Assembly (NCBI GenBank): GCA_905479265.1 | Contig: CAJQLX010000024.1 | Span: 1 to 64,000 of the forward strand | Source: an uncultured Alphaproteobacteria bacterium | Lineage (GTDB): Bacteria > Pseudomonadota > Alphaproteobacteria > UBA7985 | Length of the DNA stretch: 64,000 nucleotides | Reading direction: 5' to 3' | In this document: positions 8,143 through 63,836 of the stretch, one piece after another | Layout: every line of letters starts with the position of its first letter | How positions within the stretch are numbered: position 1 is the first letter of the stretch | Program-made: the position numbers and the translations under genes | Notes under the pieces: model-generated | The model's input: only the letters and a program-made list of their open reading frames with translations | Told to the model about the DNA's origin: nothing | The model's database searches: none

Positions 8143-9629
8143 GCGACCTTCTGACTCGGAACGAATATCAGGCGATTGCCGACACGCTGGTGTACCCGCG
8201 CGCTGCCTTTATCGACGGCAAGTACCAAGCGGGTCACGGGGAGACTCTGGCGTCGATCAACCCGGCGACCGGAGAGACGATCGCGGAGATTGCGGCCTGT
8301 AACGCTGACGACGTGGACTTTGCCGTTCAGAAGGCAAAGGAGGCGTTTGAGCAAGGCCATTGGGCCAAAATGCACCCCACTGAGCGCAAAGGTGTGTTGG
8401 TCCGGCTCTCTAAGCTCATGACCCGCAACCGCCGCGAACTCGCGGTCCTGGAAAGCCTGGAAAGCGGCAAGCCGATTGCCGATTGTGAGACCATCGACAT
8501 CCCCGAAAGCATCCACACGATCCTGTGGCACGCCGAAGCGGTCGATAAGATTTACGATCAGACGGGCCCGAGCGGAGACGGCGCGATTTCTATGATCGTG
8601 CGGGAGCCGATTGGCGTGGTGGGTGCTGTATTGCCGTGGAACTTCCCTTTGCTGATGCTGGCGTGGAAAATTGGTCCTGCGCTAGCGGCGGGCTGTTCGG
8701 TGATCGTCAAGCCTGCGGAGCAAACATCCATGACAGCCCTCCGGGTTGCTGAGCTGGCGGCCGAAGCGGGTCTTCCGCGCGGCGTCCTGCAAGTCTTGCC
8801 CGGGGATGGCCCTTCGGTGGGTGAGCCCATCGGCATGCACCCTGACATCGATATGGTCAGCTTTACCGGGTCGACGGAAACGGGCCGGCGGTTCCTGCGC
8901 TATGCGGCGGACAGCAATCTGAAGAAGGTCGTGTTGGAATGCGGCGGCAAGAACCCGGCGGTGGTGCTGGAAGATGCAGAGAACCTCGACCATGTGGCTG
9001 ACAACGTCGTGAATGCAGCGTTTTGGAACATGGGTGAGAACTGTTCCGCCAACTCTCGCTTGATCGTCCACAAAGACGTGAAAGCACCGCTGATGGAGCG
9101 GATTTTGGCACGGGTGCGCGACTGGAAGACGGGCGACCCTCTGGACCCCAGCAACAGCCTTGGCGCGCTGATCGACGCTGAGCATTGCAGCAAGGTCGCG
9201 TCCTTTTTGACCGGCGAAGCGCTGATTGGTGGCGCGATGGACGGTCCCTATTGCCCACCCACCATCTATGAAGTGTCCCGCGATGACAGCCGAGCGATCG
9301 ATGAGATCTTTGGGCCGGTGCTCAGTGTGATTGAAGTGGCATCCATGGATGAGGCGATCGAAGTGGCCAACGACACAGACTACGGTCTCGCCGCGTCTGT
9401 CTTTACCGCAAATGCGCGCAAGGCGCTGCGGGCCGCCCGCGATATTCGCGCGGGAACGGTGACTGTGAATTGCTACGGTGAGGGCGACATCTCCACGCCG
9501 TTTGGCGGTTACAAGCAGTCCGGCTTTGGGGGGCGTGACAACGGCATTCATGCGCACGACCAGTACACCGAGCTCAAGACCATATGGATCGACCTGAACG
9601 ATCCAAAAGACGGAGATAACGTAGCATGA
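8139..9629 (+). CDS. Aldehyde dehydrogenase (NAD(P)+), betaine/semialdehyde type
   Basis: A 496-residue ALDH-superfamily enzyme oxidising an aldehyde to the acid. Visible motifs are PWNFPLLMLAWKIGPALAAG (nucleotide-fold entry), KPAEQTS, FTGSTETGR, the general-base Glu in ECGGKNP, the nucleophile Cys in NMGENCSANSRL, and the distal EIFGPVLSV. The start ATG overlaps the preceding stop in an ATGA, showing tight translational coupling. By context it should oxidise an aldehyde released by an upstream or downstream step of the operon, for example the semialdehyde from the DapA-family enzyme or formaldehyde/aminoaldehyde from amine oxidation. This role is inferred. Confidence 0.92.
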   Translation: MSDLLTRNEYQAIADTLVYPRAAFIDGKYQAGHGETLASINPATGETIAEIAACNADDVDFAVQKAKEAFEQGHWAKMHPTERKGVLVRLSKLMTRNRRELAVLESLESGKPIADCETIDIPESIHTILWHAEAVDKIYDQTGPSGDGAISMIVREPIGVVGAVLPWNFPLLMLAWKIGPALAAGCSVIVKPAEQTSMTALRVAELAAEAGLPRGVLQVLPGDGPSVGEPIGMHPDIDMVSFTGSTETGRRFLRYAADSNLKKVVLECGGKNPAVVLEDAENLDHVADNVVNAAFWNMGENCSANSRLIVHKDVKAPLMERILARVRDWKTGDPLDPSNSLGALIDAEHCSKVASFLTGEALIGGAMDGPYCPPTIYEVSRDDSRAIDEIFGPVLSVIEVASMDEAIEVANDTDYGLAASVFTANARKALRAARDIRAGTVTVNCYGEGDISTPFGGYKQSGFGGRDNGIHAHDQYTELKTIWIDLNDPKDGDNVA

Positions 9630-11176
9630 GCGTAGCAGCAGTCGGTACAGAGCGCCGCGGACGTGGCGCGCGCAAAGCCTCGCGGCAGAAGCGGAACACC
9701 ACCATGCTCCCCGCGCTGCGTCGAAGGCTCCCGCTGACGGAGCCGATGAGCCAAGAGCAGGTGGAGAAGATCGACGCGGCGTCGATGGACATCCTTGAAA
9801 ACATTGGTGTGGTATTTCGCGATGAGATTGCGCTGGAAGATTGGCGCAAGGCCGGCGCCGATGTCCGCGGTGAGACGGTGCATCTGGACCGTGGTTTGGT
9901 GCGTGAGTTGATTGCCAGCATCCCCAGCACCTTCACCATCCACGCTCGAAACCACGCCAACGATTTACCCTTCGGCAACGATCACTCCATTTTCGTACCG
10001 ATGACCGGCGCGCCGTACCTGCGGGACATGGAAGACGTCCGCCGAAACCCGACGCTGGACGATCTGGCGAACTTCCACAAGCTCAGCCACATGCTGCCGG
10101 CCATCCACTCCAGCGCGCATCATATCGTTGAGCCCTACGACCACCCCATCTCGCACCGCCATTTGCGCATCACATACTCGTCGATGAAACACAGCGACAA
10201 AACCTTCATGGGCATGACAACCTCGCCCAAGAATGCCGAAGACGTGATGGATATGTGCGCTGTGCTGTTCGGCGAAGATTATCTCGAAGATCACGCCGTC
10301 TGCACCGGCAACTGCAACGGCAACTCTCCGCTGGTGTGGGACGAGACCATGCTGGGCGCCATGCGCGCCTTTGCCCGGCGCAAGCAGCCGGTTTTGTGCT
10401 CACCGTTCGTCCTTGGCGGCGCCAACACGCCGGCCTCCGTTGCGCCCACGGTCGCACAGCTGAATGCTGAAGCCTTATCCGCCCTCGCTTACACCCAAGT
10501 TGTGCGCAAAGGGACACCGGCGATCTATGGACATTACCTGGCAACGGTTTCCATGAAGTCCGGCGCGCCGATGGCGGGGACACCTGAAATCAGCCTGATG
10601 AACTTCATGATTGGTCAAATGGCGCGGTATTATGACGTGCCGTGGCGGACCTCGAACACGCTGGGTGGGGCTAAGACCTTTGACGCCCAGGCCGGGTACG
10701 AGAGCGCAACAACGATGATGGCCGCGCTCATGTCCGGGGCCAACTATATCTGGCATTCGGCGGGCTGGAATGAAGCGGGCATGCACTGTTCCATGGCGAA
10801 GTTTGTCGTGGATGCTGAGCAGTGCGCCATGGGGTATCGTATGGCGGAGGGTGTGCGCTGGGACGACTTTGACGAAGCGCTGCAGGCCGTTCGCGATGTC
10901 GGACCCGGCGGCCACTATTTGGGCCATCCCCATACGTTAGAGAACTTTCAACGCGCGTTCTTTATGCCCGAAATGTTCGACAACAACTCAATCGAGCAGT
11001 GGCAGGCCGAAGGCTCCGTTGAGATCAACGAACGTGCGCTGCAGCGGGTCAAAGACCTGCTCAATGAATACGAAGAGCCAAAGCTGGACGAAGGCGTTAA
11101 CGAAGCACTGCTGGATTACATTGCCCGTCGAGAGCGTGAAATCCCCGCTGTCGAAGCCTTGAACCAGGATCACTAG
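9626..11176 (+). CDS. MttB-like trimethylamine methyltransferase family protein (non-pyrrolysine)
   Basis: A 516-residue member of the MttB superfamily of corrinoid-dependent N-methyltransferases. The frame is open throughout, with no internal amber codon, so it is a non-pyrrolysine homologue like those demethylating quaternary amines such as glycine betaine, proline betaine or carnitine. Recognisable regions are the acidic N-terminal helical part, SSMKHSDKTFMGM, the G-rich barrel segments with TGNCNGNSPLVWD, and the C-terminal barrel GGAKTFDAQAGYES. No corrinoid protein or methyltetrahydrofolate partner lies beside it, which is odd for a classical methyltransferase system. The ATGA overlap with the aldehyde dehydrogenase shows coupling. 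Substrate and methyl acceptor are unknown. Confidence 0.8.
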   Translation: MSVAAVGTERRGRGARKASRQKRNTTMLPALRRRLPLTEPMSQEQVEKIDAASMDILENIGVVFRDEIALEDWRKAGADVRGETVHLDRGLVRELIASIPSTFTIHARNHANDLPFGNDHSIFVPMTGAPYLRDMEDVRRNPTLDDLANFHKLSHMLPAIHSSAHHIVEPYDHPISHRHLRITYSSMKHSDKTFMGMTTSPKNAEDVMDMCAVLFGEDYLEDHAVCTGNCNGNSPLVWDETMLGAMRAFARRKQPVLCSPFVLGGANTPASVAPTVAQLNAEALSALAYTQVVRKGTPAIYGHYLATVSMKSGAPMAGTPEISLMNFMIGQMARYYDVPWRTSNTLGGAKTFDAQAGYESATTMMAALMSGANYIWHSAGWNEAGMHCSMAKFVVDAEQCAMGYRMAEGVRWDDFDEALQAVRDVGPGGHYLGHPHTLENFQRAFFMPEMFDNNSIEQWQAEGSVEINERALQRVKDLLNEYEEPKLDEGVNEALLDYIARREREIPAVEALNQDH

Positions 11177-23989: not shown

Positions 23990-24802
23990 TCAGCTCGTCC
24001 AGATACGCGCATCTATGGCGGTGTCTTCTTTGCGATTTAGAAACACAACACGGGTGAAAACCGGCGCTTGTGCCAGCCGATGCAAGCGGCCTTGAGCCAC
24101 CAGCGCTTCGACCATCCGCGCTGGTAAATAGGCTGTGCCGCCCTTGTTCAAAATAAACGATAGGGCCGGCGAAGGCGCGTTGAATGTCAGGCGGGCGGAG
24201 TTGGCATCAGCATAGAAGGTCATATGCTGTTGGCTGAAGTCCTCACCATAGTCGACGAAAATATAACCCGGATCAAACCGCAATGGCGCATCGGGGTCTG
24301 TGGAGACCAAGATCAACTGATCCTCGCCCACCGCTTCATTCACCACCCCCACGCGCGTGATTGGCACATAGCCCAAAGCCGTATCCACCAACCCACTATC
24401 CAACCAGCCTGATAAGTCGCTCTCGCCGCCGGAGAACACGGAGACGCTGATCCCTTCGTGCTCGTCCAAAGCGGAAAACAGCCGCTCGCCCCACCCATCC
24501 CACAGATCCGCGTGCACCGCGCAGTTCCGAAACACGCGACGGCCCGTCGGCGAAGAGACTTCCAATCGCGCTTGCCGCCACATGCCGGAGATGGTTTGCG
24601 CATAGCGCTGAAGCCGCAAACCGGCGCTGGTGCAGGTCGCGCCAGACTTGGAGCGCGTGATCAATGTCTGCCCCAACGCTTCCTCCAGCGCCTTGAGGCG
24701 TGCGGTCACCGTGGACTGCGTGACATTCAACCGCTCAGACGCCCGCACGAGCGAGCCGGTTTCAACAATGGCAAGAAATGTTTGGATGGCTGCGATATTC
24801 AT
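23990..24802 (-). CDS. LysR-family transcriptional regulator
   Basis: A 270-residue LysR regulator. The N-terminal winged helix runs MNIAAIQTFLAIVETGSLVR through SERLNVTQSTVTARLKALE, and a periplasmic-binding-like effector domain follows. It is transcribed away from the aldehyde dehydrogenase operon at 24918, the usual arrangement for a LysR activator of its divergent neighbour, and a LysR-type box lies between them. Confidence 0.9.
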   Translation of the reverse strand: MNIAAIQTFLAIVETGSLVRASERLNVTQSTVTARLKALEEALGQTLITRSKSGATCTSAGLRLQRYAQTISGMWRQARLEVSSPTGRRVFRNCAVHADLWDGWGERLFSALDEHEGISVSVFSGGESDLSGWLDSGLVDTALGYVPITRVGVVNEAVGEDQLILVSTDPDAPLRFDPGYIFVDYGEDFSQQHMTFYADANSARLTFNAPSPALSFILNKGGTAYLPARMVEALVAQGRLHRLAQAPVFTRVVFLNRKEDTAIDARIWTS

Positions 24803-24810: not shown

Positions 24811-24831
24811 TAATTCATGTTTTTCGAATTA
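24811..24831. promoter_or_regulatory. LysR-type box between the regulator and the ALDH operon
   Basis: TAATTC-N9-GAATTA is a perfect interrupted palindrome containing the T-N11-A form. It lies 9 bases from the LysR start and 87 bases before the ALDH start, a standard position for a LysR recognition site. Confidence 0.6.
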
Positions 24832-24917
24832 AAACCACGATTAATTTCATTTTCTTATAGGACCGCAATGATTTAGGAAGGTCTTATACAAGCACTGTTT
24901 TGGGGAGGAACTGCGCT

Positions 24918-26396
24918 GTGTCGCTTGAAGCCTATAAAATGCTGATTGATGGTCAATGGGTTAGCGCCAGTGACGGCGGGGCGTTTGAGTCCGTCGATCC
25001 CGCCACCAACACACCGTGGGCCACCATCCCCGAAGCCACCGAAGCCGACGTGGATGCCGCCGTCAAAGCCGCATATCACGCACAAACCGAAGGCCCATGG
25101 GCCAGCATGACACCGTCACAGCGCGGTAAGCTGCTGGGCAAGCTTGGTGATCTTCTGGCCGCAAACTCGGAACACCTAGGCCGCATCGAAACCCGCGATA
25201 CCGGCAAGATGTTTAAGGAGACCGCGTGGCAGGCGAAGTATATCGCCGAGTATTTCCATTTCTTCGCGGGCGCAGCTGACAAAATTAGCGGCGAGACCCT
25301 GCCCATCGACAAGCCGGACATGTTCGTGTTCACCGATCGGGAACCGCTGGGCGTGGTCGCCGCTGTGATCCCGTGGAACTCGCAAATGTTCCTCAGCGCT
25401 GTCAAGATCGGCCCCGCTTTGGCCGCTGGCAACACCATCGTGCTCAAGGCCAGCGAAGAAGCCTCCACGCCGTTGCTAGAGTTCGGCAAGCTGGTCGCAG
25501 AAGCGGGCATTCCTGCGGGTGTTGTGAATATTGTCACCGGTCATGGTGAGCCTTGTGGCCGTGTGCTGACCAGTCACCCCTTGGTCGCCCGCGTCGCCTT
25601 TACCGGCGGTCCCAAGGCCGCCGCCCACGTGATCCGTAACACAGCCAACAACTACGCGGCGCTGTCGTTGGAACTCGGTGGCAAGTCGCCGTTCATTGTC
25701 TTTGATGACGCCAATCTGGAAAGCGCGGTCAATGGTTCTGTCGCTGGGATCTTTGGCGCGTCTGGCCAAAGCTGTGTGGCGGGGTCTCGCTTGTTCCTGC
25801 AAGAGGGCATCGCGGACGCGTTCCTCGAACGGATGATTGCGACCGCCAAAGGCATCCGCATTGGCGACCCAATGGCCGATGAAACCGAAATGGGCCCGCT
25901 GTGTACCACCGCACAGGTCAGCCACATCCAGCATCAGATCAAAACGGCGGTCGATCAGGGGGGAACAATCCTGACCGGGGGCCAGCAAGCTGATGGCTTG
26001 GGCAGCCAGTACTTCCAGCCCACGATCATCGAAGCCCCGGACCCGTCCCTCGACATCGTGGATACGGAGCTGTTTGGTCCCGTCCTAACGGTGCAGCGTT
26101 TCCGGGATGAAGCGCACGTTCTGGCGCTGGCGAACCAATCCGAGCATGGCTTGGCCGCAGGCATCTTTACCCGTGACAGCGCCCGTTCGATCCGCATGGC
26201 GCGCCGCATCCGTGCTGGCATTGTGTGGGTGAATACCTACCGCGCCATCTCCCCAATTGCTGCCTTTGGCGGTGAGAAGATGTCCGGCTATGGCCGTGAA
26301 GCGGGCATGCAAGCGATGTACGACTACACCCGCCCCAAGACCGTCTGGATGAACCTATCAGACGAGCCCCTGACGTCCCCGTTCCAACCCCGTTAA
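24918..26396 (+). CDS. Aldehyde dehydrogenase (NAD(P)+)
   Basis: A 492-residue ALDH with VIPWNSQMFLSAVKIGPALAAGN, KASEEAS, FTGGPKAAAHV, ELGGKSPF (general-base Glu), the catalytic Cys in GASGQSCVAGSRL and ELFGPVLTV. The GTG at 24918 has GGAGGA eight bases upstream; a TTG at 24900 would precede that site and is rejected. First gene of an operon with a luciferase-like monooxygenase, DUF1185 protein, hydrolase and TPP enzyme. It probably oxidises the aldehyde made by one of these; which one is not known. Confidence 0.92.
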   Translation: MSLEAYKMLIDGQWVSASDGGAFESVDPATNTPWATIPEATEADVDAAVKAAYHAQTEGPWASMTPSQRGKLLGKLGDLLAANSEHLGRIETRDTGKMFKETAWQAKYIAEYFHFFAGAADKISGETLPIDKPDMFVFTDREPLGVVAAVIPWNSQMFLSAVKIGPALAAGNTIVLKASEEASTPLLEFGKLVAEAGIPAGVVNIVTGHGEPCGRVLTSHPLVARVAFTGGPKAAAHVIRNTANNYAALSLELGGKSPFIVFDDANLESAVNGSVAGIFGASGQSCVAGSRLFLQEGIADAFLERMIATAKGIRIGDPMADETEMGPLCTTAQVSHIQHQIKTAVDQGGTILTGGQQADGLGSQYFQPTIIEAPDPSLDIVDTELFGPVLTVQRFRDEAHVLALANQSEHGLAAGIFTRDSARSIRMARRIRAGIVWVNTYRAISPIAAFGGEKMSGYGREAGMQAMYDYTRPKTVWMNLSDEPLTSPFQPR

Positions 26397-26415
26397 GACG
26401 AAGTGGACTGAAACC

Positions 26416-27450
26416 ATGAAATTCCATCTCGCCATCAACCTAGAGCGCACCTCCGCCGACACTTCGATCATGGACGTGCGCCACCATGTTGAAGATATGA
26501 TCCGCATGGCGGACGATGCTGGTTTTGAGATCGCTTGGGCCGCTGAGCATCACGCGCTTGAAATGACAATCGCCCCCAACCCGTTCCAGATTCTGACGTG
26601 GTGGGCTGGCATTACCAAGAACATTCGACTGGGCTGCGGCGTTGCCAATGCTTCATACTGGCACCCCATCAACATCGCGGGTGAAGCAGCGCTGCTCGAC
26701 GTGCTCTCTGAGGGGCGGCTTGAGCTGGGTTTGGGCTCAGGCGCTTATCAGCGCGAGTTCGATCGCATGAAGCCCGGGCTGGAGCAGAAGGATTCCTGGC
26801 AGTACATGCAGGAGATGCTGCCGCTGATCAAACAGCTGTGGGCTGGCGACGTTGAGCACAATGGCCGCTTCTGGCAGTTTCCCTCCTCTACCGCTTGCCC
26901 CAAGCCTGTGCAGGACGAGGTGCCGCTGTGGGTCGCAGCACGATCGCCCATCACCTTTGACTACGCTGTTGCCAACAACGCAAATATCATGAGTTGGCCG
27001 CTGACCATGCCGTTTGCTGAAGCCGAAAAGTATCGGGAGCAGCTCAACGACGCCATCGCCAAGTCAGAGACCCCCTTCACCGGTAAGTTCGCCATGATGC
27101 GCCACTCGGCGATCTATGAGAACGAAGCCGACCGCCAGCTTGCGCTGGGCGCGCTGCGGCACACGCTGGGGCAGTTCGGTAATCTGATGCAGAAGAAGGG
27201 CGACGTCATCAACGGTTTCCCAGAGCGTGTGCCCGTTGACCAGCTCGACGGCAACATGCGTTACGACCCCGACACATTGGAAGAAAACCTCATGTTCGGC
27301 TCTGCGGAGCAATGCGCAGAGAAATTGGCCGCGTACAAAGACATCGGTGTTGATGCGTATATCTATTACGCCTCCATGGGTCTGGACATGGATATGCAGA
27401 AGCGCTCCCTGTCGACCTTTATCGAGCGGGTAATGCCGCACGCAGCCTGA
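26416..27450 (+). CDS. LLM-class (bacterial luciferase-like) flavin-dependent monooxygenase
   Basis: A 344-residue TIM-barrel flavoprotein using FMNH2 and oxygen. Features are AEHHALEMTIAPNPFQIL, the G-V-A-N-A segment, LDVLSEGRLELGLGSGAYQREF (the family's conserved S-x-GR-x-x-x-G-x-G loop) and PLWVAARSP. No flavin reductase gene lies beside it, so it would draw reduced flavin from elsewhere. In this operon it could open or cleave a heteroatom bond (N, S or C-C) in the starting compound. Substrate unknown. Confidence 0.88.
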   Translation: MKFHLAINLERTSADTSIMDVRHHVEDMIRMADDAGFEIAWAAEHHALEMTIAPNPFQILTWWAGITKNIRLGCGVANASYWHPINIAGEAALLDVLSEGRLELGLGSGAYQREFDRMKPGLEQKDSWQYMQEMLPLIKQLWAGDVEHNGRFWQFPSSTACPKPVQDEVPLWVAARSPITFDYAVANNANIMSWPLTMPFAEAEKYREQLNDAIAKSETPFTGKFAMMRHSAIYENEADRQLALGALRHTLGQFGNLMQKKGDVINGFPERVPVDQLDGNMRYDPDTLEENLMFGSAEQCAEKLAAYKDIGVDAYIYYASMGLDMDMQKRSLSTFIERVMPHAA

Positions 27451-27494
27451 TCACCGCCTCAACCCCTGTTTCACATCCCACAAGGACCCCCATC

Positions 27495-28091
27495 ATGGCC
27501 GTAGAAATCCGCCGCACCCTGTTGAACATCCAAGACACCTTCATCGAGGGCGGCAAAGTCATCGACACGCCAACCAAACTGGTGGCCGCGATCGCTGTGA
27601 TCCGGAACCCGTGGTTTGGCCGCGGTTATGTTGAGGATTTGCAGCCCGAAATCCGGGAGCATGGTCCTGTTCTGGGAAAGCTGCTGACGCAAATGCTGCT
27701 GGATACGGTAGGTGACACACTGGAAGGCTGCGGCAAGGCATCGAACGTTGGTTCGGGCGGCGAGGTTGAGCACGCGCAAGCCCTGACCCACACCCTGTGG
27801 TTCGGCAACGAGTTCCGCGAAGCGATCAACGCCAAGTCCTACCTTGCCTTTACCAACACGCGCGGTGCGATGGGGACGGCGATGATGATCCCGCTGATGC
27901 ACAAGGACGACGGCGGCCTGCGCTCTCACTACCAGACCATCCACCTGACCATCCCCGACGCTCCAGCGGATGACGAGATCGTTGTGGCCTTGGGCGCGTC
28001 TGTAGGCGGGCATCCAAACCACCGCATTGGCAACCGCTATTCCGACCTTAAGGAAATGGGCCGCGACGTTGATAATCCGGCGGGCGTCTAA
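27495..28091 (+). CDS. DUF1185 / 'amino acid synthesis' family protein
   Basis: A 198-residue protein of the poorly described DUF1185 (PF06684) family, with a chorismate-mutase-like/ring-forming fold known from structure but no proven reaction. Characteristic stretches are AVIRNPWFGRGYVEDLQP, CGKASNVGSGGEVEHAQALTH and TNTRGAMGTAMMIPLMHKDDG. The gene has an AAGGA site and sits between the LLM monooxygenase and the hydrolase. The conserved context in this operon implies an enzymatic role in breakdown of a ring or amide compound, not in amino acid synthesis. Confidence 0.8.
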   Translation: MAVEIRRTLLNIQDTFIEGGKVIDTPTKLVAAIAVIRNPWFGRGYVEDLQPEIREHGPVLGKLLTQMLLDTVGDTLEGCGKASNVGSGGEVEHAQALTHTLWFGNEFREAINAKSYLAFTNTRGAMGTAMMIPLMHKDDGGLRSHYQTIHLTIPDAPADDEIVVALGASVGGHPNHRIGNRYSDLKEMGRDVDNPAGV

Positions 28092-28093
28092 GG

Positions 28094-28909
28094 GTGAGTG
28101 ACCACCCCTCAACAGAAATGACGCTCGACGGCACGGCCTATGAGCGTCATGGCGATCCGACGACACAGCCCACCGTGGTGCTGATCCACGGTCTGGGTCT
28201 GTCGCGGCGCCTGTTTGACCCGATGATCGCGGCGTTCAGCGCGCACTTCGCTGTGCTGTCCTACGACCTGTATGGCCATGGGGAAAGCGCCCCGCCGCCG
28301 CGCACCGCTACGCTGGGGCTTTATGCCGAGCAAATCCGCGGCCTGCTCGATGCAACCGGTATCCAGCGGGCGGCGCTGGTGGGGTTCTCCATCGGTGGGA
28401 TGATCAACCGCCGCTTTGCGCTGGATTTCCCCGATCGGCTGAGCGCGCTGGCGATTTTGAACAGCCCCCATGATCGGGGTGACGCAGCCCAACTCGCCGT
28501 CGAAGACCGCGCCGCGAAAGTGCGTGAGCAAGGCACGATGAGCACCCTGCCCGACGCCTTGTTGCGCTGGTTCACGCCTGACTTCCTCGCCAACCACGCA
28601 TCCACCGTGGACCACGTCCGCCAGTGGCGCAGCGCCGTGGATGCGGAGGGGTACGCCCAAACCGCTTGGGTGCTGGCCCACGGGGTGCGCGAGTTGATCC
28701 AGCCCGACCAGCCCATCACCGCACCGACACTGGTGATGACCAGCGAGCACGACACCGGCTCGACCCCCGCCATGGCCCACGCCATCGCCCATGAGATCAG
28801 CGGCGCGCAAACGCACGTCGTCCCGCGCCTACAGCACTTGGGTCTGATGGAAGACCCCGCCGCCTTTACCGGCCCCACGGTTGAATTTTTGAAGAGGACA
28901 CTGACGTGA
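28094..28909 (+). CDS. Alpha/beta-hydrolase (enol-lactonase type)
   Basis: A 271-residue hydrolase. The oxyanion-hole region is LIHGLGLSRRLFDPM, the nucleophile elbow is GFSIGG, the acid is in TLVMTSEHDTGS and the catalytic His lies in LQHLGLMED. It begins with GTG (28094) two bases after the DUF1185 stop and overlaps the TPP-enzyme start (GTGA). Likely hydrolyses an ester, lactone or C-C bond produced by the monooxygenase. The remnant at 21942 belongs to the same group. Confidence 0.88.
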   Translation: MSDHPSTEMTLDGTAYERHGDPTTQPTVVLIHGLGLSRRLFDPMIAAFSAHFAVLSYDLYGHGESAPPPRTATLGLYAEQIRGLLDATGIQRAALVGFSIGGMINRRFALDFPDRLSALAILNSPHDRGDAAQLAVEDRAAKVREQGTMSTLPDALLRWFTPDFLANHASTVDHVRQWRSAVDAEGYAQTAWVLAHGVRELIQPDQPITAPTLVMTSEHDTGSTPAMAHAIAHEISGAQTHVVPRLQHLGLMEDPAAFTGPTVEFLKRTLT

Positions 28910-30594
28910 CCAAACTTTCTGGCGGTCAAGCCGCCGTCGAGGCACTCCGCGCTGAGGGCACCCGCCACGTATTCGGCCTCATTGGTTCGGCGACGATGGA
29001 GCTGTTCGATGCGCTCTATGATGCGTCCGAGATCAACTTCATCGGCGTCCGTGACGAGCGGACCGGCACCCACATGGCCGACGGCTACGCGCGCGTTTCT
29101 GGCGATCCCGGCGTCATTCTGGCCGGTCAGAACGGCCCGGGCGCGACCAACCTTGTCACCGGGCTCAGTCAGGCCAAAGCCGCCTTTTCCCCTGTGGTCA
29201 GCATCGCCGGCGCCCTGTCGTCACAGCACGTGTACCGCGATGCGTTCCAAGAGGTCGATCAGCAATCCGTTTTCACGCCTGTCACGAAAAAGACGTGGAC
29301 GGCCCCCTCCACCGACCGCGTGCCAGAGCTGTTCCGCGAGGCCTTCCGCACCGCCATGACCCCGCGCAAAGGGCCCGTGCAGCTCAACCTGCCGCGTGAT
29401 GTCCTCTCCGGTCAGGCTGAGTTCGACATGCCGATGCAGACGCCGGACCAATATCGCAGCTTCCACCTGCCCGGCGCGCACCCCGACGCCATCGCCCAGG
29501 CCGCCACCCTGCTCACCGGGGCGCGTCAGCCCGTGATCGTCACCGGCGGCGGGATCAAGAACACCTTGGGCCATGACCAGGCGATTGCGCTGGCACAGGC
29601 GCTGAACTGTCCGCTGGTCAGTGCGCCCGGCCATGGCGACGGCATCCCCTTTGCCCACCCGTTGAACGCGGGTCAAATGGGGCCGCGCGGCAATCCCGTC
29701 GCCTCGCGATTGGTTAAGGAAGCGGACGTCATCCTCGCGCTGGGGACGCGGCTTGGCTTCAACTCGACCTTCTACAGCTACGACAACATCAACCGCGACG
29801 CGCAGATCATCCAGATCGAGCTTGAGCCGACCGCCATTGGCCGCTTCTTCCCGATCACGCTGGGCATCTGGGCCGATGCACCGACCGCAGCGCAGCAGCT
29901 GGCCGACGCCGTAACCAGCATTCAACGCCGCGCCGCCGCCGATGCGTGGGTCAGCGGGTTCCAGACCGAGCGTCAAGCCTACCTCGCCAAGCGCGACGCC
30001 GACGCGGACATGTCTCACCCAACCCAGCCTTCCGGGCTGTTCAAAACCTTGCGCGGTGTGTTGCCCGAAGATGCGGCGATCACCATGGATGCGGGGACGC
30101 TGTGCCTGCAAGCGACGGACGCGCTCAACTACCACCATCCCCGCAGCCTGTTCACCCCGCTGGATTTTGGCTTGGTTGGCTTTTCCTTTGCCTGCGGATT
30201 GGGGATCAAGGCAGCGCGGCCCGAACGTCCTGTGGTCAGCTTCATGGGCGATGGCGGCTTTGGCATGACCATATCAGAGCTGAGCACGGCGGTGGATTAC
30301 GGCCTGAACACGGTAACGGTGGTGATGAACAACCAGTGTTGGGGCGCGGAAAAGGCGTATCAGCGCGATTTCTTTGGCGAGCGCTACATCGGCGCCGACA
30401 TCACCTCCCCCGACTTCGCCCAAGCCGCCGAGCTGTATGGCGCAGCAGGGTTCCGGGCGGATCGGTTGTCGGACGTGGCCGGCGCGGTAGAGGCGGCTTT
30501 GGCCTGCGGCAAGCCCGCAGTGGTTGACGTCGCTGTGGACCCCAACGCGCTCTATTCCTTCCGCCGCGACAGCTTCAAACACCGAGGCGGCTAA
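28906..30594 (+). CDS. Thiamine-diphosphate enzyme, Xsc-like (sulfoacetaldehyde acetyltransferase/acetolactate synthase family)
   Basis: A 562-residue ThDP enzyme. Segments HVFGLIGSATMELFD, GQNGPGATN, FQEVDQQSVF (ThDP-activating Glu region), GDGGFGMTISELSTA (ThDP-Mg motif GDG...N) and NNQCWGAEKAYQRDF closely resemble, as I recall them, the signature stretches of sulfoacetaldehyde acetyltransferase more than those of acetolactate synthase; the tail SFRRDSFK also fits. Xsc makes acetyl phosphate and sulfite. No pta gene is adjacent, so it may act on a related aldehyde or 2-oxo acid. Start is a GTG overlapping the hydrolase stop. Confidence 0.82.
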   Translation: MTKLSGGQAAVEALRAEGTRHVFGLIGSATMELFDALYDASEINFIGVRDERTGTHMADGYARVSGDPGVILAGQNGPGATNLVTGLSQAKAAFSPVVSIAGALSSQHVYRDAFQEVDQQSVFTPVTKKTWTAPSTDRVPELFREAFRTAMTPRKGPVQLNLPRDVLSGQAEFDMPMQTPDQYRSFHLPGAHPDAIAQAATLLTGARQPVIVTGGGIKNTLGHDQAIALAQALNCPLVSAPGHGDGIPFAHPLNAGQMGPRGNPVASRLVKEADVILALGTRLGFNSTFYSYDNINRDAQIIQIELEPTAIGRFFPITLGIWADAPTAAQQLADAVTSIQRRAAADAWVSGFQTERQAYLAKRDADADMSHPTQPSGLFKTLRGVLPEDAAITMDAGTLCLQATDALNYHHPRSLFTPLDFGLVGFSFACGLGIKAARPERPVVSFMGDGGFGMTISELSTAVDYGLNTVTVVMNNQCWGAEKAYQRDFFGERYIGADITSPDFAQAAELYGAAGFRADRLSDVAGAVEAALACGKPAVVDVAVDPNALYSFRRDSFKHRGG

Positions 30595-30617
30595 CCACCG
30601 CCACTAGGCCCATCACC

Positions 30618-30831
30618 TTCAAGCCCTCCACGAGTAACCGCGAACCCCACCCACTCAAGCCCTCCCTGAGTGACCGCGAAGCGGTTGTATCGAAGGGGGC
30701 CAACCCACTCAAACCCTCCCCGAGAGACCGCGAAGGCACCACACTCAAATCCTCTCTAAGTGACCACGAAGCCCACCCACTCCGGCCCTCCCTGAGTGGC
30801 CGCGAAGCGGTTGTATCGAAGGGGGCCAACC
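30618..30831. repeat. Five imperfect hairpin-bearing intergenic repeats
   Basis: About five units of roughly 36 bases follow CACTCAAGCCCTCCCTGAGTG then ACCGCGAAG in pattern; CACTCA and TGAGTG can pair. Two units (from 30652 and 30778) carry an extra segment, giving a 32-base exact duplicate at 30674-30705 and 30800-30831 containing the palindrome CCGCGAAGCGG. The array fills the gap between the TPP-enzyme gene and the small protein at 30872 within the operon. Confidence 0.75.
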
Positions 30832-30871
30832 GCACCATCGCCCCACTCAACCCGACACTCGGAAAGCCACG

Positions 30872-31201
30872 ATGATCACAAAACTCGCGATATTCGAAGG
30901 AACGGTAAAGCAGGGCCAAGAGGCCGCGATGCGGGACTATGTGGAAACCACCCTACGCCCGCTGTGGGAAGCCTTCGAAGGCGCGCACCGCGTCCGCGTC
31001 CTCTATGGCACCAAATCCGACGACAAAGGCCCCAACATCCCCCTCATCCTAGAGGTCGATTACCTCACCCAAGACCACCTAACCCAAGCCATGGCCTCCC
31101 CGGCCCGTTTTGAGTCCCGAGACCTGCTGCCGAGGTTCTATGAAGCGTATTTTGATGATGTGGTTTTGCGGCATGTGGAGTGCAAAAGCATCAACGATTA
31201 G
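30872..31201 (+). CDS. Small EthD/Dabb-like ferredoxin-fold protein
   Basis: A 109-residue protein that I assign to the dimeric alpha/beta-barrel group by pattern only: beta start MITKLAIFEGTVKQG, helix DYVETTLRPLWEAF, then PLILEVDYLTQDHLTQAMASPARFESRD, a layout common to EthD and stress-responsive A/B-barrel proteins. Such proteins often act as small hydrolases/monooxygenases or accessory factors beside catabolic operons. It follows the repeat array after the TPP-enzyme gene and could be the operon's last gene. Confidence 0.55.
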   Translation: MITKLAIFEGTVKQGQEAAMRDYVETTLRPLWEAFEGAHRVRVLYGTKSDDKGPNIPLILEVDYLTQDHLTQAMASPARFESRDLLPRFYEAYFDDVVLRHVECKSIND

Positions 31202-56390: not shown

Positions 56391-57731
56391 ATGTCAAAGC
56401 GAGTTGCCATCATCGGCGCAGGTCCGTCGGGTCTGGCACAGTTGCGAGCGTTTCAGTCTGATCAAGCCAAGGGCGCAGACATTCCAGAGGTTGTTTGTTT
56501 TGAAAAGCAAAGCGATTGGGGTGGTCTGTGGCGCTATGATTGGCGGACGGGTCTCGATGCTAAGGGTGAGCCCGTTCATGGGTCCATGTACCGCTATCTT
56601 TGGTCCAATGGTCCAAAGGAAGGGCTGGAGTTCGCTGATTACTCCTTTGACGAACATTTTGGAAAACCCATTGCGAGCTATCCGCCGCGGGCGGTGTTGT
56701 TCGACTATATCGAGGGCCGGGTTAAGAAGGCTGGAATCCGCGACTGGATCCGCTTTGAAACAGCCGTGCGCCGCGTGGAAGAGACCGCTGCTGGCGGATT
56801 TCGCGTGGTTTCAGAAGACCTCAACAGTGGTGAAGAAACCGACGAGCACTTTGACCATGTCGTCGTCGCCTCCGGGCACTTCTCAACCCCCAATGTGCCA
56901 CACTACCCGGGCTTTGACCGCTTTGGTGGCCGGATCCTGCACGCGCATGATTTCCGGGACGCCGTCGAGTTCAAAGATCAGGATATTCTGATCCTCGGCT
57001 CCTCCTATTCCGCCGAAGATATTGGATCCCAGTGCTGGAAATACGGTGCGAAGTCGATCACGTGTTGCTACCGCACCGCACCGATGGGGTACGACTGGCC
57101 AGACAACTGGAAAGAAGTGCCCGCGCTGCAGCGGCTTGAGGGCAAGACAGCGCACTTTAAGGACGGTACCTCTCAGGCCGTGGATGCCATTATTCTCTGC
57201 ACGGGCTACTTGCACCACTTCCCGTTCATGGAAGAGAAACTGACACTCAAGACCACAAACCGGCTGGCGACGGCGGACCTGTTCAAGGGCGTTGCTTTCG
57301 TCGGGAACACGGATCTGTTCTACTTGGGCATGCAGGACCAATGGTACACATTCAACATGTTCGACGCACAAGCATGGTGGGTTCGAGATGCCATCATGGG
57401 CCGCATTTCCGTGCCCACGGACCCCAAGGCGCTGGCCGCTGACGTCGCGGCCCGTGAAGCGGAAGAAGAGGCGCAGGCCGATGGCTATGGCCCCATTGTG
57501 TATCAGGGTGCTTACGTCAAAGAGCTGATGGATGAAACGGACTACCCCAGCTTTGACGTTGAGGTCGCCAACCAAGCTTTCAAAGAGTGGAAAGGCCACA
57601 AGAAGAAAAACATCATGACGTTCCGAGACAATGGCTATGTTTCTCCGCTCAGCGGCAAACGAGCGCCAGCGCACCATACGCCATGGAAAGACGCCCTCGA
57701 CGATAGTATGGAAGCGTACTTGAAGTCGTAA
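56391..57731 (+). CDS. tmm: Trimethylamine monooxygenase (flavin-containing, Tmm)
   Basis: A 446-residue [23 protein letters not shown] is the FAD motif, [14 protein letters not shown] and [10 protein letters not shown] are highly characteristic of bacterial Tmm, [10 protein letters not shown] is the NADPH motif and FMO-like segment, and YLHHFPF and [17 protein letters not shown] close the protein. It oxidises trimethylamine (and can oxidise dimethyl sulfide) using NADPH and oxygen. The ATG has AGAGGG upstream. The downstream TMAO demethylase and TMAO importer genes are not in the window. Confidence 0.95.
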
Positions 57732-57739
57732 AATTTAAG

Positions 57740-57771
57740 AGTGCCGTAACGCAATACTGCCTTACGGCACT
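57740..57771 (+). terminator. Terminator-like hairpin after tmm
   Basis: AGTGCCGTAA and TTACGGCACT form a perfect 10-base stem around a 12-base loop, eight bases past the tmm stop. There is no T-run. Confidence 0.6.
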
Positions 57772-57849
57772 ACAATTCCACTGGTACCCACCCTACTTAA
57801 CCTGTGCGAAGAGGCGACCGACGACGTAACAACAGAGAGAACCGGGCCG

Positions 57850-58524
57850 TTGACGAAGAATGAAACCGACAGTGCGATCATGACAGAAGCGGAAGGCTTG
57901 CAAGCGCCGGTTCTGAAACAAGATCCTCACAAAGTTGGCACGGACCAGCAGGAAAAAGTCCTGGAAGTGGCGATTGGCCGCGAAGTTAAGGCTGTCCGCA
58001 AGCAGCAGAACATTACGGTTTTGGAGCTGTCCAAAAAGACCGGAATCTCGCCGGGTATGCTGTCCAAGATTGAAAATGGTCTGACATCGCCCTCGCTGAC
58101 GACGCTGCAGACCCTTTCTGAAGCGCTGTCGGTGTCACTCACATCGTTCTTTCGCCGCTTCGAAGAGCAGCGTTCTGCTGTACTGGTCAAGGCAGGCAGC
58201 GGTATGGACGTTGACAGAGCGGGCACGCGCGCGGGTCACCAGTACAATCTGCTGGGGCACGTGGGCTCGAATGCCAGTGGGGTGATCGTTGAGCCTTACC
58301 TGATCGAGCTGACCACAGAATCTGATACCTTTGCGACGTTCCAGCACGATGGGATCGAGTTCATCTACATGCTCGAAGGCGAAGTGGACTATCACCACGC
58401 CGGCCAAGTTTATCGATTGGAACCGGGCGATAGCTTTACCTTTGACGCCGATGCGCCACACGGACCGGGGAAACTAACCACCCTGCCGGCGCGCTATTTG
58501 TCGATCATCACCTACCCGCAATAA
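57850..58524 (+). CDS. XRE-family regulator with C-terminal cupin
   Basis: About 224 residues. The HTH is VRKQQNITVLELSKKTGISPGMLSKIENG, and the cupin domain has FQHDGIEFIYMLEGEVDYHHAGQ and LEPGDSFTFDADAPHGP with metal-type His/Glu residues. Cupin regulators of this type control amine and amino acid catabolism. It lies between tmm and the dmm operon and may control either. Start TTG 57850 or ATG 57880. Confidence 0.85.
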   Translation: MTKNETDSAIMTEAEGLQAPVLKQDPHKVGTDQQEKVLEVAIGREVKAVRKQQNITVLELSKKTGISPGMLSKIENGLTSPSLTTLQTLSEALSVSLTSFFRRFEEQRSAVLVKAGSGMDVDRAGTRAGHQYNLLGHVGSNASGVIVEPYLIELTTESDTFATFQHDGIEFIYMLEGEVDYHHAGQVYRLEPGDSFTFDADAPHGPGKLTTLPARYLSIITYPQ

Positions 58525-58574
58525 GACAAAACCCGGCCCGACCGCCCGGATGCAAGGGCGTGTGACCAAACGGA

Positions 58575-58608
58575 AAAGGCGACCCCAAGAGGTCGCCTTT
58601 GCTTTTTT
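58575..58608. terminator. Strong terminator between regulator and dmmC
   Basis: AAAGGCGACC and GGTCGCCTTT form a perfect 10-base stem around CCAAGA, followed by GC and six Ts on the plus strand. It ends the regulator transcript and may also stop the opposing dmm transcript. Confidence 0.85.
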
Positions 58609-58645
58609 CGTGGTCTTGGTCTGCACGACGGACGGCTGAAGAGGC

Positions 58646-59692
58646 TTAGTCGTCCTCGGGCCATGTACCCAGCGAAGTTTCCGCACCATCGTCAAACTGC
58701 GACAAGTACTCAAGAATAGCCGGACGGTTATCGATGAAACCCTTGTAGGTCGCCAACTCAACCGGCAAATCCCGCAACACGCGATGCAAGCGCCGGCCCC
58801 ATTTGGGCTGGCTGACCAAATCCTGCAAGCTGATCAGGTAACAGCGGATCGGAAACACCAGCGCATTGGACCGCGGCAAGCGCCAGAAAGACTGGAGCTC
58901 CACCCGCAGGTGCTGTTTGGTGCCAATATTTTCGGAGGTGAGCGTGGTCTTTTGAATGCCCCACTTGTGATAGTTTTCCGGGCTGGTATCGAGCAGTGGG
59001 TTCACCGTCATGGTCCAGTTCAAACGACGCGCAGGCGCGCCAATCTGGACCGCCGTCAGGAACTTCAGCGCGCGCTGGAAAATCCCCAACTCGTGCGCCA
59101 AAGGAACCGGCGCGTGCCATTCGAAAAAGTTCATGCCGATGTCAAAATCAAGCGACCAGTCAGCCTGAGTGGTCACCATGCCGGCGTCCATCCAGAGGTT
59201 GCCTTCGCGTTGATCCAGAACGCAGAAATCGCCCTGCGCTTGGCGCGTGATGTATTCCATCGGGCCGTAAGGCAGAGTGGTTTCATCACCAAAGGTAAAG
59301 GTATCATCGATGCCCAATGGCCGGTTGATCCAATGCCAGCGGTCGCCGTCTTGGTGCAGCGTGAACAAGTCAGGATAGTCCTTGGCCTTTGCGACCATGA
59401 TCAACTCAAGCAAGTCCCACCCGGCCAGCGTCATATGCGGCAGGGATTGGCACCGCAGCGGGTCGTCAGCGAGCACCAAAGCCCGGTCCCGCATCTCTGA
59501 GACGTAATGCTCATCCACATCAAACGATTTTTCATAGACGCTTCCGGCGCGCACGGGGGTGTGCGGCTCCATATTGACGGCGTACATGTAGCTGTCTTTG
59601 TCGAACGGGAAAGGAAACCGCTTGATGGCCTCCGGTGAGTTCGAGAAGCTGTAGTCGTCACGAAAAGTCTCGTCTTTAAAGACCATGCCCAT
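58646..59692 (-). CDS. dmmC: Dimethylamine monooxygenase heme subunit (DUF3445/HODM family)
   Basis: A 348-residue DUF3445 heme-dependent oxidative N-demethylase. NRPLGIDDTFTFGDETTLPYGPMEYI, NFFEWHAPVPLAHELGIF and LRVELQSFWRLPRSNALVFPIRCYL are family-typical; the histidines near HAPVP and R-rich segment would sit by the heme. AAGGAGGGT precedes the ATG. Last of the dmmDABC operon: it oxidises dimethylamine to monomethylamine plus formaldehyde with electrons from DmmB. Subunit letters follow my recollection of the described order D-A-B-C. Confidence 0.85.
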   Translation of the reverse strand: MGMVFKDETFRDDYSFSNSPEAIKRFPFPFDKDSYMYAVNMEPHTPVRAGSVYEKSFDVDEHYVSEMRDRALVLADDPLRCQSLPHMTLAGWDLLELIMVAKAKDYPDLFTLHQDGDRWHWINRPLGIDDTFTFGDETTLPYGPMEYITRQAQGDFCVLDQREGNLWMDAGMVTTQADWSLDFDIGMNFFEWHAPVPLAHELGIFQRALKFLTAVQIGAPARRLNWTMTVNPLLDTSPENYHKWGIQKTTLTSENIGTKQHLRVELQSFWRLPRSNALVFPIRCYLISLQDLVSQPKWGRRLHRVLRDLPVELATYKGFIDNRPAILEYLSQFDDGAETSLGTWPEDD

Positions 59693-59727
59693 GATGCACG
59701 ACCCTCCTTATTTTTGAGTGGCGCCGT

Positions 59728-60717
59728 CTAGCGCTCCAAAACCAATTTGCTCCCGGAAAAGCGCGACATGCAGGGCATAATCGCCTGCTTGCTGGCGCGC
59801 TGTTCGTCGGTCAGCCAGTGGTCGTTGTGTTCGATGGTCCCATCGCAGGCGATGATCTTGGTTTCGCACTGTCCGCACGCACCACCCCGGCACATGTACG
59901 GCGCATCCACGCCGGCTGCCTCGATCGCTTCCAACAGCGACTGCCGCTCGCCCACGTCGACGGTTAGACCGCTTTTGGCAAGCTCCACCGTGAAGGGCTG
60001 ACCCGGTTGTGGTGCGACGAATTCCTCGTGGTGGATGTTCTCAATCGGCCAGCCAACCGACCGGGCTTGATTGATCACAATATCGATCATGGGCTTTGGA
60101 CCACAAACATAGAGGTGCGTGCCCAAGGGCTGGCGCGCCATCACGCCGGTCAAGTCGCGGTCGGGGTCTTCGTTATCGAAGTAAGTGGTCAGGCTGACGG
60201 CTGCATCATCACTAAGGTCCGCCAAATACGCCGTTTTGGCCGGCTCGCGGGTGAAGTAGTGCAGCTCAAAGTCTGCTTTGCCGGCGGTCCCCAATCGACC
60301 TTTTTGCGCCTTCAGCTGCTTGATCTGGCTGAGGAACGGGGTGATCCCGATCCCGCCGGCAATCATCAGGTGCTTTGACGCTGTACGATCGAGGGAAAAC
60401 AGGTTGTTCGGCATGGAAAGACGAACCCGGTCGCCCTGCTTTAGCTTGGTGTGCAGATAGAGCGAACCGCCCCGCCCCCCGTCATCTCGGCGCACCGAAA
60501 TGGCGTAAGTCGCCGTATCAGAGGGGTCACTCATCAAAGAGTATGGGTTCAGGCGTCGGGTTCCATCGTCGTCCATCTCAACGACCACATGCGCGCCACC
60601 GGAAAACGGGGGAAAGGCGTGGCCGTCAGCCCGTTGGAACTCAAACCGCTTGATCTCGTCGGTGACCTCAACAATGTCTGAAACAACAACGTCCAACTTC
60701 AGTTTCTCGTTGCTCAT
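59728..60717 (-). CDS. dmmB: PDR/VanB-type ferredoxin-reductase subunit of dimethylamine monooxygenase
   Basis: A 329-residue reductase. N-terminal flavin-binding barrel (NPYSLMSDPSDTATYAISVRR), NAD-binding part (IAGGIGITPFLSQIKQLK and YVCGPKPMIDIVI) and a C-terminal plant-type ferredoxin cluster (MCRGGACGQCETKIIACDG; C-x4-C-x2-C). It passes electrons from NAD(P)H to the heme subunit. The ATG overlaps the dmmA stop (ATGA). Confidence 0.92.
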   Translation of the reverse strand: MSNEKLKLDVVVSDIVEVTDEIKRFEFQRADGHAFPPFSGGAHVVVEMDDDGTRRLNPYSLMSDPSDTATYAISVRRDDGGRGGSLYLHTKLKQGDRVRLSMPNNLFSLDRTASKHLMIAGGIGITPFLSQIKQLKAQKGRLGTAGKADFELHYFTREPAKTAYLADLSDDAAVSLTTYFDNEDPDRDLTGVMARQPLGTHLYVCGPKPMIDIVINQARSVGWPIENIHHEEFVAPQPGQPFTVELAKSGLTVDVGERQSLLEAIEAAGVDAPYMCRGGACGQCETKIIACDGTIEHNDHWLTDEQRASKQAIMPCMSRFSGSKLVLER

Positions 60718-61325
60718 GGAAACACCTCCTCAGCCGGGGGGACGTTGCCGTGGTCTTCGGCGTCGATGCGAACCGCTTGAAACGCAGCAAGGCGACGAGA
60801 ATAATGGTCGCGCACGAACAGATGCAGATCGCAGTGGGGGCACTGATAGGGATCAGTGGTGACATCCTCGGCAATCCCCTTGCAATGCACGCACTGAACA
60901 CGGCGGGCCAAGGAGCCTCGATGCTCGGTCTGGATCGACATGTGGGAGATACCGGCGGCCATGATATCGCGCATGGCCTGGCCCATCAGTCCTTCGGTGC
61001 CTGTGAGGTAGAATTGGGTGCCCATTCGGCAGTCTTCCAGCGACCGCACCAAGCGGTTAAGCGCGCTGGATATATGAGAGGCGACGTAAAACTTCGGGGC
61101 GCCCAAAGCCTTTAACGCTGCCTGAAACGTCTCGCCGCTGCGGCCCGGCACGTAAATGATATGGGCCGCGCTCCAGAAGTCTTTGTCCGCCACTTTCGCC
61201 ACGTCGAGGATGGCTTCTGCCCCCTCTGCGTTGGCCACAAAGACATGCTCGGACCCTGTGCGGGCCTCCAACACGCCGTAAACCGGGCGGCTTTTGATCG
61301 AGGGTTCAAAATGGGTTTTGGTCAT
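60714..61325 (-). CDS. dmmA: Dimethylamine monooxygenase subunit DmmA family protein
   Basis: A 203-residue protein. A central domain with IIYVPGRSGETFQAALKALGAPKFYVASH and FYLTGTEGLMGQAM is followed by a zinc-ribbon-like CVHCKGIA...CPHCDLHLFVRDHYSRR. The ATG at 61325 is far inside a longer open frame that has no gene upstream. Associates with the heme and reductase subunits. Confidence 0.85.
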   Translation of the reverse strand: MTKTHFEPSIKSRPVYGVLEARTGSEHVFVANAEGAEAILDVAKVADKDFWSAAHIIYVPGRSGETFQAALKALGAPKFYVASHISSALNRLVRSLEDCRMGTQFYLTGTEGLMGQAMRDIMAAGISHMSIQTEHRGSLARRVQCVHCKGIAEDVTTDPYQCPHCDLHLFVRDHYSRRLAAFQAVRIDAEDHGNVPPAEEVFP

Positions 61326-61363
61326 AGAATCCGTCACCGATGGTTTGATCGTCGAAAACGGGA

Positions 61364-61399: not shown

Positions 61400-61416
61400 G
61401 CCGAGGAGTGCGCTGC

Positions 61417-62939: not shown

Positions 62940-63836
62940 ATGTGTGGAATTGTTGGATTGTTTCTTAAGGACGACAGCTTGTCTCCTCAGCTGGGGGGGA
63001 TGTTGTCAGAAATGCTGGTGACCATGACCGATCGCGGCCCGGACAGTGCGGGCATCGCGCTCTATGGTGCCTCGGAAGGCTCTAGCTTCAAGGTGACCGT
63101 TCAGTCTGATGACCCTGCGACCGGGTTCAACGGTTTGGCAGCCCACCTGTCAGCAGCAACCGGAAGCCCTTGTCGTATCGAGGAAAAATCCACCCACGCC
63201 GTCATTTCAACCGATGGCGACAATGCTGAAAAGCTGGTCGCACACCTGCGCGATGCGCACAGTGCGCTGCGGATCATGTCCACCGGCGACAGCATGGAAA
63301 TCTACAAAGAAGTCGGCCTGCCCAAGGATGTCGCAGCCCGCTTCAACATCAACCAGATGAGTGGCACGCACGGCATTGGCCACACGCGGATGGCGACTGA
63401 GTCTGCCGTTACCACCATGGGCGCGCACCCCTTCTCAACCGGCGCGGACCAGTGCCTTGTCCACAACGGCTCGCTGTCGAATCACAACAGCCTGCGCCGT
63501 CGCCTGCGCCGCAATGGTGTGCATATCGAGACCGAGAACGATACTGAAGTCGCAGCCGCTTACCTGACACACCGCATGAATCAGGGGCGCAACCTTGGTG
63601 AAGCGCTCGAAGACAGCCTCGACGACCTCGACGGCTTCTTCACCTTTGTCGTCGGAACGAAGAATGGCTTTGGCGTGTTGCGCGATCCGATTGCTTGCAA
63701 GCCCGCCGTGATGGCCGAGACCGATCAGTATGTCGCCTTTGGCTCTGAATACCGCGCTCTGGTCTCCCTGCCCGGCATCGACACCGCGCGTGTTTGGGAG
63801 CCTGAGCCTGCCAACGTTTACTTCTGGGAGCGCTAA
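62940..63836 (+). CDS. mgsA: N-methylglutamate synthase subunit A (class II glutamine amidotransferase type)
   Basis: A 298-residue Ntn-hydrolase of the GlxB/GltB glutaminase type. After the start Met comes Cys (MCGIVGLF), the nucleophile; MTDRGPDSAG, GIGHTRMATESAVT and CLVHNGSLSNHN complete the site. It supplies part of the enzyme that makes N-methylglutamate from gamma-glutamylmethylamide. First gene of the mgs operon, facing dmm. Confidence 0.9.
   Translation: MCGIVGLFLKDDSLSPQLGGMLSEMLVTMTDRGPDSAGIALYGASEGSSFKVTVQSDDPATGFNGLAAHLSAATGSPCRIEEKSTHAVISTDGDNAEKLVAHLRDAHSALRIMSTGDSMEIYKEVGLPKDVAARFNINQMSGTHGIGHTRMATESAVTTMGAHPFSTGADQCLVHNGSLSNHNSLRRRLRRNGVHIETENDTEVAAAYLTHRMNQGRNLGEALEDSLDDLDGFFTFVVGTKNGFGVLRDPIACKPAVMAETDQYVAFGSEYRALVSLPGIDTARVWEPEPANVYFWER

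Follow-up and report, generated by a model that had tools for sequence, protein, structure and literature searches.

A putative trigonelline-type ring-opening gene cluster with an Xsc-like thiamine pyrophosphate enzyme in an uncultured alphaproteobacterium

The stretch of DNA analysed here (the window) comprises positions 1 to 64,000 of contig CAJQLX010000024.1 (C24) in the 2.89 Mb assembly GCA_905479265.1 of an uncultured Alphaproteobacteria bacterium. It contains a compact run of plus-strand genes that appears to encode a modified ring-opening pathway of the trigonelline type, the new part being an enzyme dependent on thiamine pyrophosphate (TPP), akin to sulfoacetaldehyde acetyltransferase (Xsc), in place of the usual last step. 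The genes encode an aldehyde dehydrogenase (ALDH), a luciferase-like flavin monooxygenase (LLM), a DUF1185 protein, an alpha/beta hydrolase, the TPP enzyme and then, as a small open reading frame (ORF), a protein with a predicted barrel-type fold; a divergent LysR gene lies ahead of them (Table 1). From homology, gene order and co-occurrence, and from the absence of tgnE and pta in the neighbourhoods, we consider it rather likely that this operon is a trigonelline-type catabolic module for a nitrogen heteroaromatic betaine, most likely a marine N-methylpyridinium-type compound, which would be opened oxidatively to give formate and methylamine, the Xsc-like enzyme acting on the carbon product. 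The substrate and the reactions are thus predictions. A cluster of this kind probably lives on a small osmolyte released by algae, and not on sulfonates.

Profile searches of the window proteins gave a curated family match for every named gene, each being a long open frame, so that the cluster recognised in an earlier interpretation of the same letters (the sequence-only reading) is indeed present. That reading also described overlapping genes. This holds for the hydrolase and TPP genes, which share 4 bp, the sole overlap of the cluster, but not for DUF1185 and the hydrolase, 2 bp apart, nor for the LLM and DUF1185 genes, separated by 44 bp. The view of a LysR-controlled cluster is likewise borne out in part: the unit is conserved with a divergent LysR gene, although the latter lies just outside the interval that had been delimited. 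The start of the ALDH gene is uncertain, the TTG at 24900 being a mechanical call.

Comparison with the trigonelline (tgn) cluster of Acinetobacter baylyi ADP1 was made via a related strain. A search of plasmid records with the window LLM led to Acinetobacter sp. PK01 (NZ_CP094644.1), where tgnA, tgnB and tgnC are annotated and where the order is DUF1185, hydrolase, tgnA, tgnB, tgnC and, further on, a succinate-semialdehyde dehydrogenase (SSADH) and a CMD-family protein; sarcosine-oxidase-like genes and folD are found on the upstream side. Homologues of the LLM oxygenase, ALDH, hydrolase and DUF1185 protein are thus gathered in one cluster in both organisms. The closest of these four core genes is DUF1185 (56% identity). 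The window ALDH is 53% identical to PK01 TgnC, versus 35% to the PK01 SSADH, and the LLM is 35% identical to TgnB over its full length. For the hydrolase, the identity is 30%, and the GFSIGG serine motif aligns, as do candidate Asp and His residues; its nearest curated models are PcaD-type 3-oxoadipate enol-lactonases, with scores below their cut-offs. Hence, a TgnC-like ALDH, a TgnD-like hydrolase and a TgnF-like DUF1185 protein are all found inside the window cluster. In both systems, genes of the methylamine type also lie on the stretch or contig that holds the cluster. The window cluster differs from its counterpart in having no flavin reductase and no SSADH, in its small barrel protein, which is of another kind, in its LysR gene where PK01 has GntR, and in the additional Xsc-like TPP enzyme.

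In trigonelline degradation, as reported by Perchat 2018, the pyridinium ring is opened by TgnAB and the aldehyde so formed is oxidised by TgnC; the hydrolase step is then said to yield methylamine, formate, CO2 and succinate semialdehyde, the latter being oxidised by TgnE. By analogy, it can be proposed that the LLM, using reduced flavin from a separate reductase, would open the ring oxidatively to an N-formyl enamide aldehyde, as TgnB, and that the TgnC-like ALDH would convert this aldehyde to the acid. Then, the TgnD-like hydrolase would strip the formyl group, and the enamine would break down to methylamine, formate and a carbon product. Help with reactive intermediates by the DUF1185 protein and the small barrel protein may be envisaged, which is the weakest step of the scheme. 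Finally, as judged from the replacement of one gene by another in the cluster, the Xsc-like enzyme would process the carbon product instead of TgnE. The succession of a bond-opening monooxygenase and a hydrolase advanced in the sequence-only reading fits such a ring opening.

The gene set recurs in distant organisms. Searching genome contigs with an alignment of the TPP enzyme gave 443 relatives, of which the best 80 were kept as loci (numbered L below), 51 of them with full flanks; neighbours were counted by tblastn and, several loci being close kin, the counts are not independent. Among the 51 fully flanked loci, homologues of the hydrolase occur in 48, of the LLM in 45, of the ALDH in 40, of LysR in 39 (at least 35% identity) and of DUF1185 in 33. 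A small barrel protein (20 loci), a flavin reductase (19), a CMD protein (17), a betaine-type transporter (9-10) and the MgsABC and GmaS proteins (5) are less frequent. The corresponding figures for the best 80 loci are 70 for the hydrolase, 63 for the LLM, 52 for the ALDH, 45 for DUF1185, 27 for a homologue of the small ORF beside the TPP gene, 22 for the flavin reductase, 9-10 for a ProVWX-type transporter and five for MgsABC and GmaS. A TgnE-like SSADH (at least 45% identity) was found in none of these 80 loci. The ORF caller placed the LysR homologue in 47 loci, always on the strand opposite to the TPP gene. Carriers of the operon belong to Rhodobacterales, Rhizobiales, SAR116, Gammaproteobacteria and Acidimicrobiales and are largely marine; culturable ones include Roseovarius aestuarii KCTC 22174, Loktanella sp. 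Alg231-35 and Rhodobacteraceae HTCC2150. Since the gene set is conserved between phyla, its arrangement is not due to chance. By contrast, the stretches taken around seven sister-clade TPP genes, which served as a control, contain no homologue of the LLM, of DUF1185 or of the hydrolase. L063 and L192, apparently on one contig, have a flavin reductase, ALDH, DUF1185, hydrolase, TPP gene and small ORF, without an LLM gene.

Among curated models, the TPP enzyme matches the two for Xsc best, with scores of 407.7 bits (TIGR03457, cut-off 676.4) and 416.4 bits (PRK07525, cut-off 620); the acetolactate synthase (ALS) model TIGR00118 gives 362.9 bits (cut-off 538.35). In a midpoint-rooted tree with some long branches, the enzyme belongs to a clade of its own (support 100/99) on the Xsc side and outside the IlvB branch, the order being the window clade, a sister clade, genuine Xsc as the next group and ALS outside. 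Moreover, 34 columns are fixed in the window clade and Xsc yet different in ALS, including W479, A481, E482, K483, Q75, N76 and Q119; the motifs WGAEK, QNGPG and FQE..Q are common to the window enzyme and Xsc. An ALS identity is thus ruled out by the tree, by residues (WGAEK replaces those of ALS) and by the sub-cut-off score, and the assignment of the enzyme to the Xsc-like group in the sequence-only reading stands. Labelling this branch in databases as sulfoacetaldehyde acetyltransferase or as acetolactate synthase would mislead.

These features raise the possibility of sulfonate degradation, with the TPP enzyme as an Xsc that would convert sulfoacetaldehyde to acetyl phosphate and sulfite; the sequence-only reading had suggested cleavage of a two-carbon aldehyde, perhaps with release of sulfite. 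The position of the enzyme on the Xsc side, its WGAEK motif and the rank of the two Xsc models agree with this proposal. So do sister-clade genes of Ruegeria pomeroyi, whose neighbours are genes of the demethylation type and one for a class III aminotransferase, a context that could give sulfoacetaldehyde from N-methylated taurine. However, the window enzyme scores far below the Xsc cut-offs, 51 positions are fixed differently in its clade and in Xsc, and other contigs of the genome encode a genuine Xsc (950 bits) and two Pta-family proteins. Queries with pta gave no match around the TPP gene in any of the searched loci, whereas annotated xsc genes adjoin pta. The partner genes include no sulfonate gene, with the proviso that other sulfonate genes were not searched for systematically; the upstream four genes match the trigonelline cluster, and the neighbours that recur encode a betaine-type transporter and methylamine assimilation. 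Release of sulfite from a two-carbon aldehyde, and the sulfonate context as a whole, therefore appear highly improbable.

The TPP enzyme would most naturally carry out an Xsc-like reaction on another substrate. As the clusters in which it is found lack TgnE, it may handle the carbon product of the hydrolase step. A further reading, somewhat less likely than not, is that it founds a new Xsc-like subfamily with a new terminal reaction, for instance from a ring-opening aldehyde or 2-oxo acid to an acyl phosphate or another acyl product. The pathway, widespread among marine bacteria, would then serve a third betaine of the N-methylpyridinium type, besides trigonelline and homarine. In the sister clade, neighbours of the TPP gene are MttB-like, old-yellow-enzyme-like or aminotransferase genes (named from Ruegeria records, otherwise by eye). 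In L079 (the R. pomeroyi DSS-3 megaplasmid) and L118, the sister-clade enzyme (43-44% identity) is in an operon beside a LysR gene, with two FAD oxidoreductases, an MttB-family protein and a class III aminotransferase; here too, an Xsc-like enzyme may be part of a betaine pathway, different from the present one. L071-L075 are further sister-clade TPP genes whose neighbours, by eye, are old-yellow-enzyme-like, some with MttB-like and flavoprotein genes.

Is trigonelline itself the substrate, the TPP enzyme being a later addition that replaces TgnE? The homology of all four core genes to tgn genes, with DUF1185 as the closest, speaks for this, but the phylogeny of the LLM points elsewhere. Its tree has three groups: one comprising the LLMs of TPP clusters with those of Aminobacter and Parasedimentitalea, one comprising Agrobacterium, Thalassospira and Shinella, and tgnB. 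The clade of the window LLM adjoins the tgnB and the Agrobacterium-type clades but is separate from the tgnB group (support 97/100), and this group takes in genomes from the window's own order (family f3). Considering this separation and the identity with TgnB, the substrate need not be trigonelline. In addition, a genuine SSADH is encoded on another contig of the genome, so that no replacement is needed for succinate semialdehyde. Degradation of trigonelline by this operon is accordingly quite unlikely. In view of the three groups, ring-opening modules of this kind probably come in three or more related forms, of which the operon would be one.

Homologues of the four-gene set are also found on plasmids of Thioclava, Rhizobium, Agrobacterium, Thalassospira, Aminobacter and Parasedimentitalea, usually with a flavin reductase. 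In plasmid searches, the window DUF1185 protein matches 389 records and the LLM 326, with nearly equal genus counts. The nearest relatives of the LLM cluster among those that lack the TPP enzyme, on plasmids of Aminobacter sp. SR38 and Parasedimentitalea marina (L076 and L077), share with the window 57% identity for the LLM, 68% for ALDH, 45-47% for the hydrolase and 50-53% for DUF1185. In its place they have RidA, a CoA-transferase or a flavin reductase, and acyl-CoA type genes; their region also holds BKACE, hydratase, 3-hydroxyacyl-CoA dehydrogenase and ABC transporter genes.

As for homarine (N-methylpicolinate), an N-methylpyridinium betaine abundant in the sea (PMC8269262), it can be asked whether the operon represents its published pathway or some version of that pathway. 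The largely marine origin of the carriers agrees with this, and N-methylglutamate dehydrogenase has been reported to take part in homarine catabolism (PMC13390433). Nevertheless, opening between C5 and C6 would, by our own reasoning, give 2-oxoglutarate or N-methylglutamate, for which the TPP enzyme is not needed, and the clusters of Agrobacterium, Thalassospira and Shinella are equally good candidates for homarine. This assignment is therefore rather unlikely, if less so than that to trigonelline.

Clues to the substrate of the proposed trigonelline-type module come from the neighbourhood of the TPP loci. In some of them, a ProVWX-type transporter is found upstream of LysR, and the ProX-like protein matches OpuAC, a glycine-betaine binding domain. 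MgsABC and GmaS together assimilate methylamine via N-methylglutamate. Genes for MgsABC and a GmaS-type glutamine synthetase lie downstream in five Rhodobacteraceae loci (L138, L142, L158, L170 and L171); the L138 GmaS-like protein is above the TIGR03105 cut-off. Taken together, the transporter and the methylamine-assimilation genes favour an N-methylated betaine, without naming one. Use of such compounds by marine bacteria is indicated by the growth of R. pomeroyi on trigonelline (PMC8269262). The contig of the window has the same four genes at 62.9-67.3 kb, with 74% (MgsB), 86% (MgsC) and 79% (GmaS) identity to L138 for the part at 63.8-67.3 kb. They lie 32-36 kb from the operon, mostly past the window end, and are a possible sink for the methylamine that it would release.

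Several points weigh against this assignment. The mgsABC-gmaS genes of the window contig are accounted for independently, as they adjoin a trimethylamine monooxygenase pathway: a methylated-amine cluster running from window positions 56391-63836 to 67.3 kb of the contig encodes trimethylamine monooxygenase (790.6 bits, cut-off 675) and trimethylamine N-oxide demethylase/GcvT-like and reductase proteins, then come the mgsABC and gmaS homologues. Adjacency of MgsABC and GmaS to the operon is seen only in the five Rhodobacteraceae loci and perhaps reflects one event. The LLM is only 35% identical to TgnB and falls in a separate clade, and no flavin reductase (TgnA) gene is present in the window cluster, one weak PF01613 match being found elsewhere in the genome. 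LLM or DUF1185 is absent from certain loci (for example L065, L069 and L192). Lastly, the structure model of the TPP enzyme is of low confidence (pLDDT 67.6, with loops of the active region below 50), and it was therefore left out of the fold search.

The DUF1185 protein matches PF06684 with 198.6 bits (cut-off 27) over model positions 1-175 of 175. Compared with the DUF1185/AA_synth family (3byq, 2qtp, TgnF and HcdD of the 7-hydroxycoumarin cluster), it is full-length and keeps the histidine-bearing motifs EH...H, RSH and the C-terminal HRIG, with which the solved homologues 2qtp and 3byq align. It belongs to a subset tied to LLM ring-opening clusters, whereas remoter family members (32-40% identity) are in loci without LLM. 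It occurs with the other genes in 33 of the 51 fully flanked loci, so that neither of the two outcomes named by the sequence-only reading as refuting its proposal, clustering of the TPP enzyme with true acetolactate synthases and a lack of co-occurrence of DUF1185, was observed. The statement that DUF1185 has no known reaction holds for a reaction of its own but needs a qualifier, since its homologue TgnF is reported to stimulate TgnE-dependent oxidation of succinate semialdehyde (PMC7913881). In L011 (G044:C14), the match of the DUF1185 homologue includes one in-frame TAG.

None of the 21 aligned homologues of the small ORF has a Pfam match above cut-off. Its AF2 model (pLDDT 92.5) was assigned by Foldseek to a dimeric alpha+beta barrel type of fold, the best match being the EthD-family structure 2ftr (E 3e-6). 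NIPSNAP and DUF1330 proteins have the same kind of fold, and one or the other is encoded near related clusters. Despite this shared barrel type of the predicted fold, the protein was rejected as a NIPSNAP on sequence grounds, as it has no Pfam match and two NIPSNAP neighbours show no similarity to it by blastp.

Marine plankton contains the nitrogen betaines trigonelline and homarine. Given the range of bacteria that hold the operon, its genes could serve as an additional marker set for the turnover of such compounds once the substrate is established. The operon also offers a concrete setting for testing DUF1185, a family with solved structures, and draws attention to a branch of the Xsc group of TPP enzymes.

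Table 1. Features of the operon and its surroundings (window coordinates).
Feature	Position	Strand	Basis
LysR-family regulator	23990..24802	-	HTH_1 and LysR_substrate, both above cut-off; divergent from operon
Aldehyde dehydrogenase (ALDH), TgnC-like	24900..26396	+	PF00171, 519 bits
Luciferase-like flavin monooxygenase (LLM), TgnB-like; proposed ring-opening oxygenase	26416..27450	+	PF00296, 184 bits
DUF1185/AA_synth protein, TgnF-like	27495..28091	+	PF06684, 199 bits
Alpha/beta hydrolase, PcaD/TgnD-like; proposed N-formyl enamide hydrolase	28094..28909	+	Abhydrolase_1
TPP enzyme, Xsc-like subfamily	28906..30594	+	three TPP_enzyme domains
Small protein, predicted dimeric alpha+beta barrel type fold	30872..31201	+	homologues beside TPP; no Pfam family
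MgsA-like N-methylglutamate synthase subunit	62940..63836	+	69% identity to MgsA-like protein of L138

The 277-base gap between the TPP gene and the small ORF contains GC-rich direct repeats of about 36 bases each (30652-30824), a 27-base core of which is found again, with three mismatches, on contig C51. This array looks inserted, since loci of the same genus have the small ORF almost directly after the TPP gene. In a few loci of Rhodobacterales (L142, L158, L170, L171 and L182), a TauD-family dioxygenase gene follows the TPP gene, either immediately or one gene further on. Elsewhere in the window, an MttB-like protein of the trimethylamine methyltransferase family (9626-11176), below the TIGR02369 cut-off, adjoins an ALDH and a DapA-like protein.

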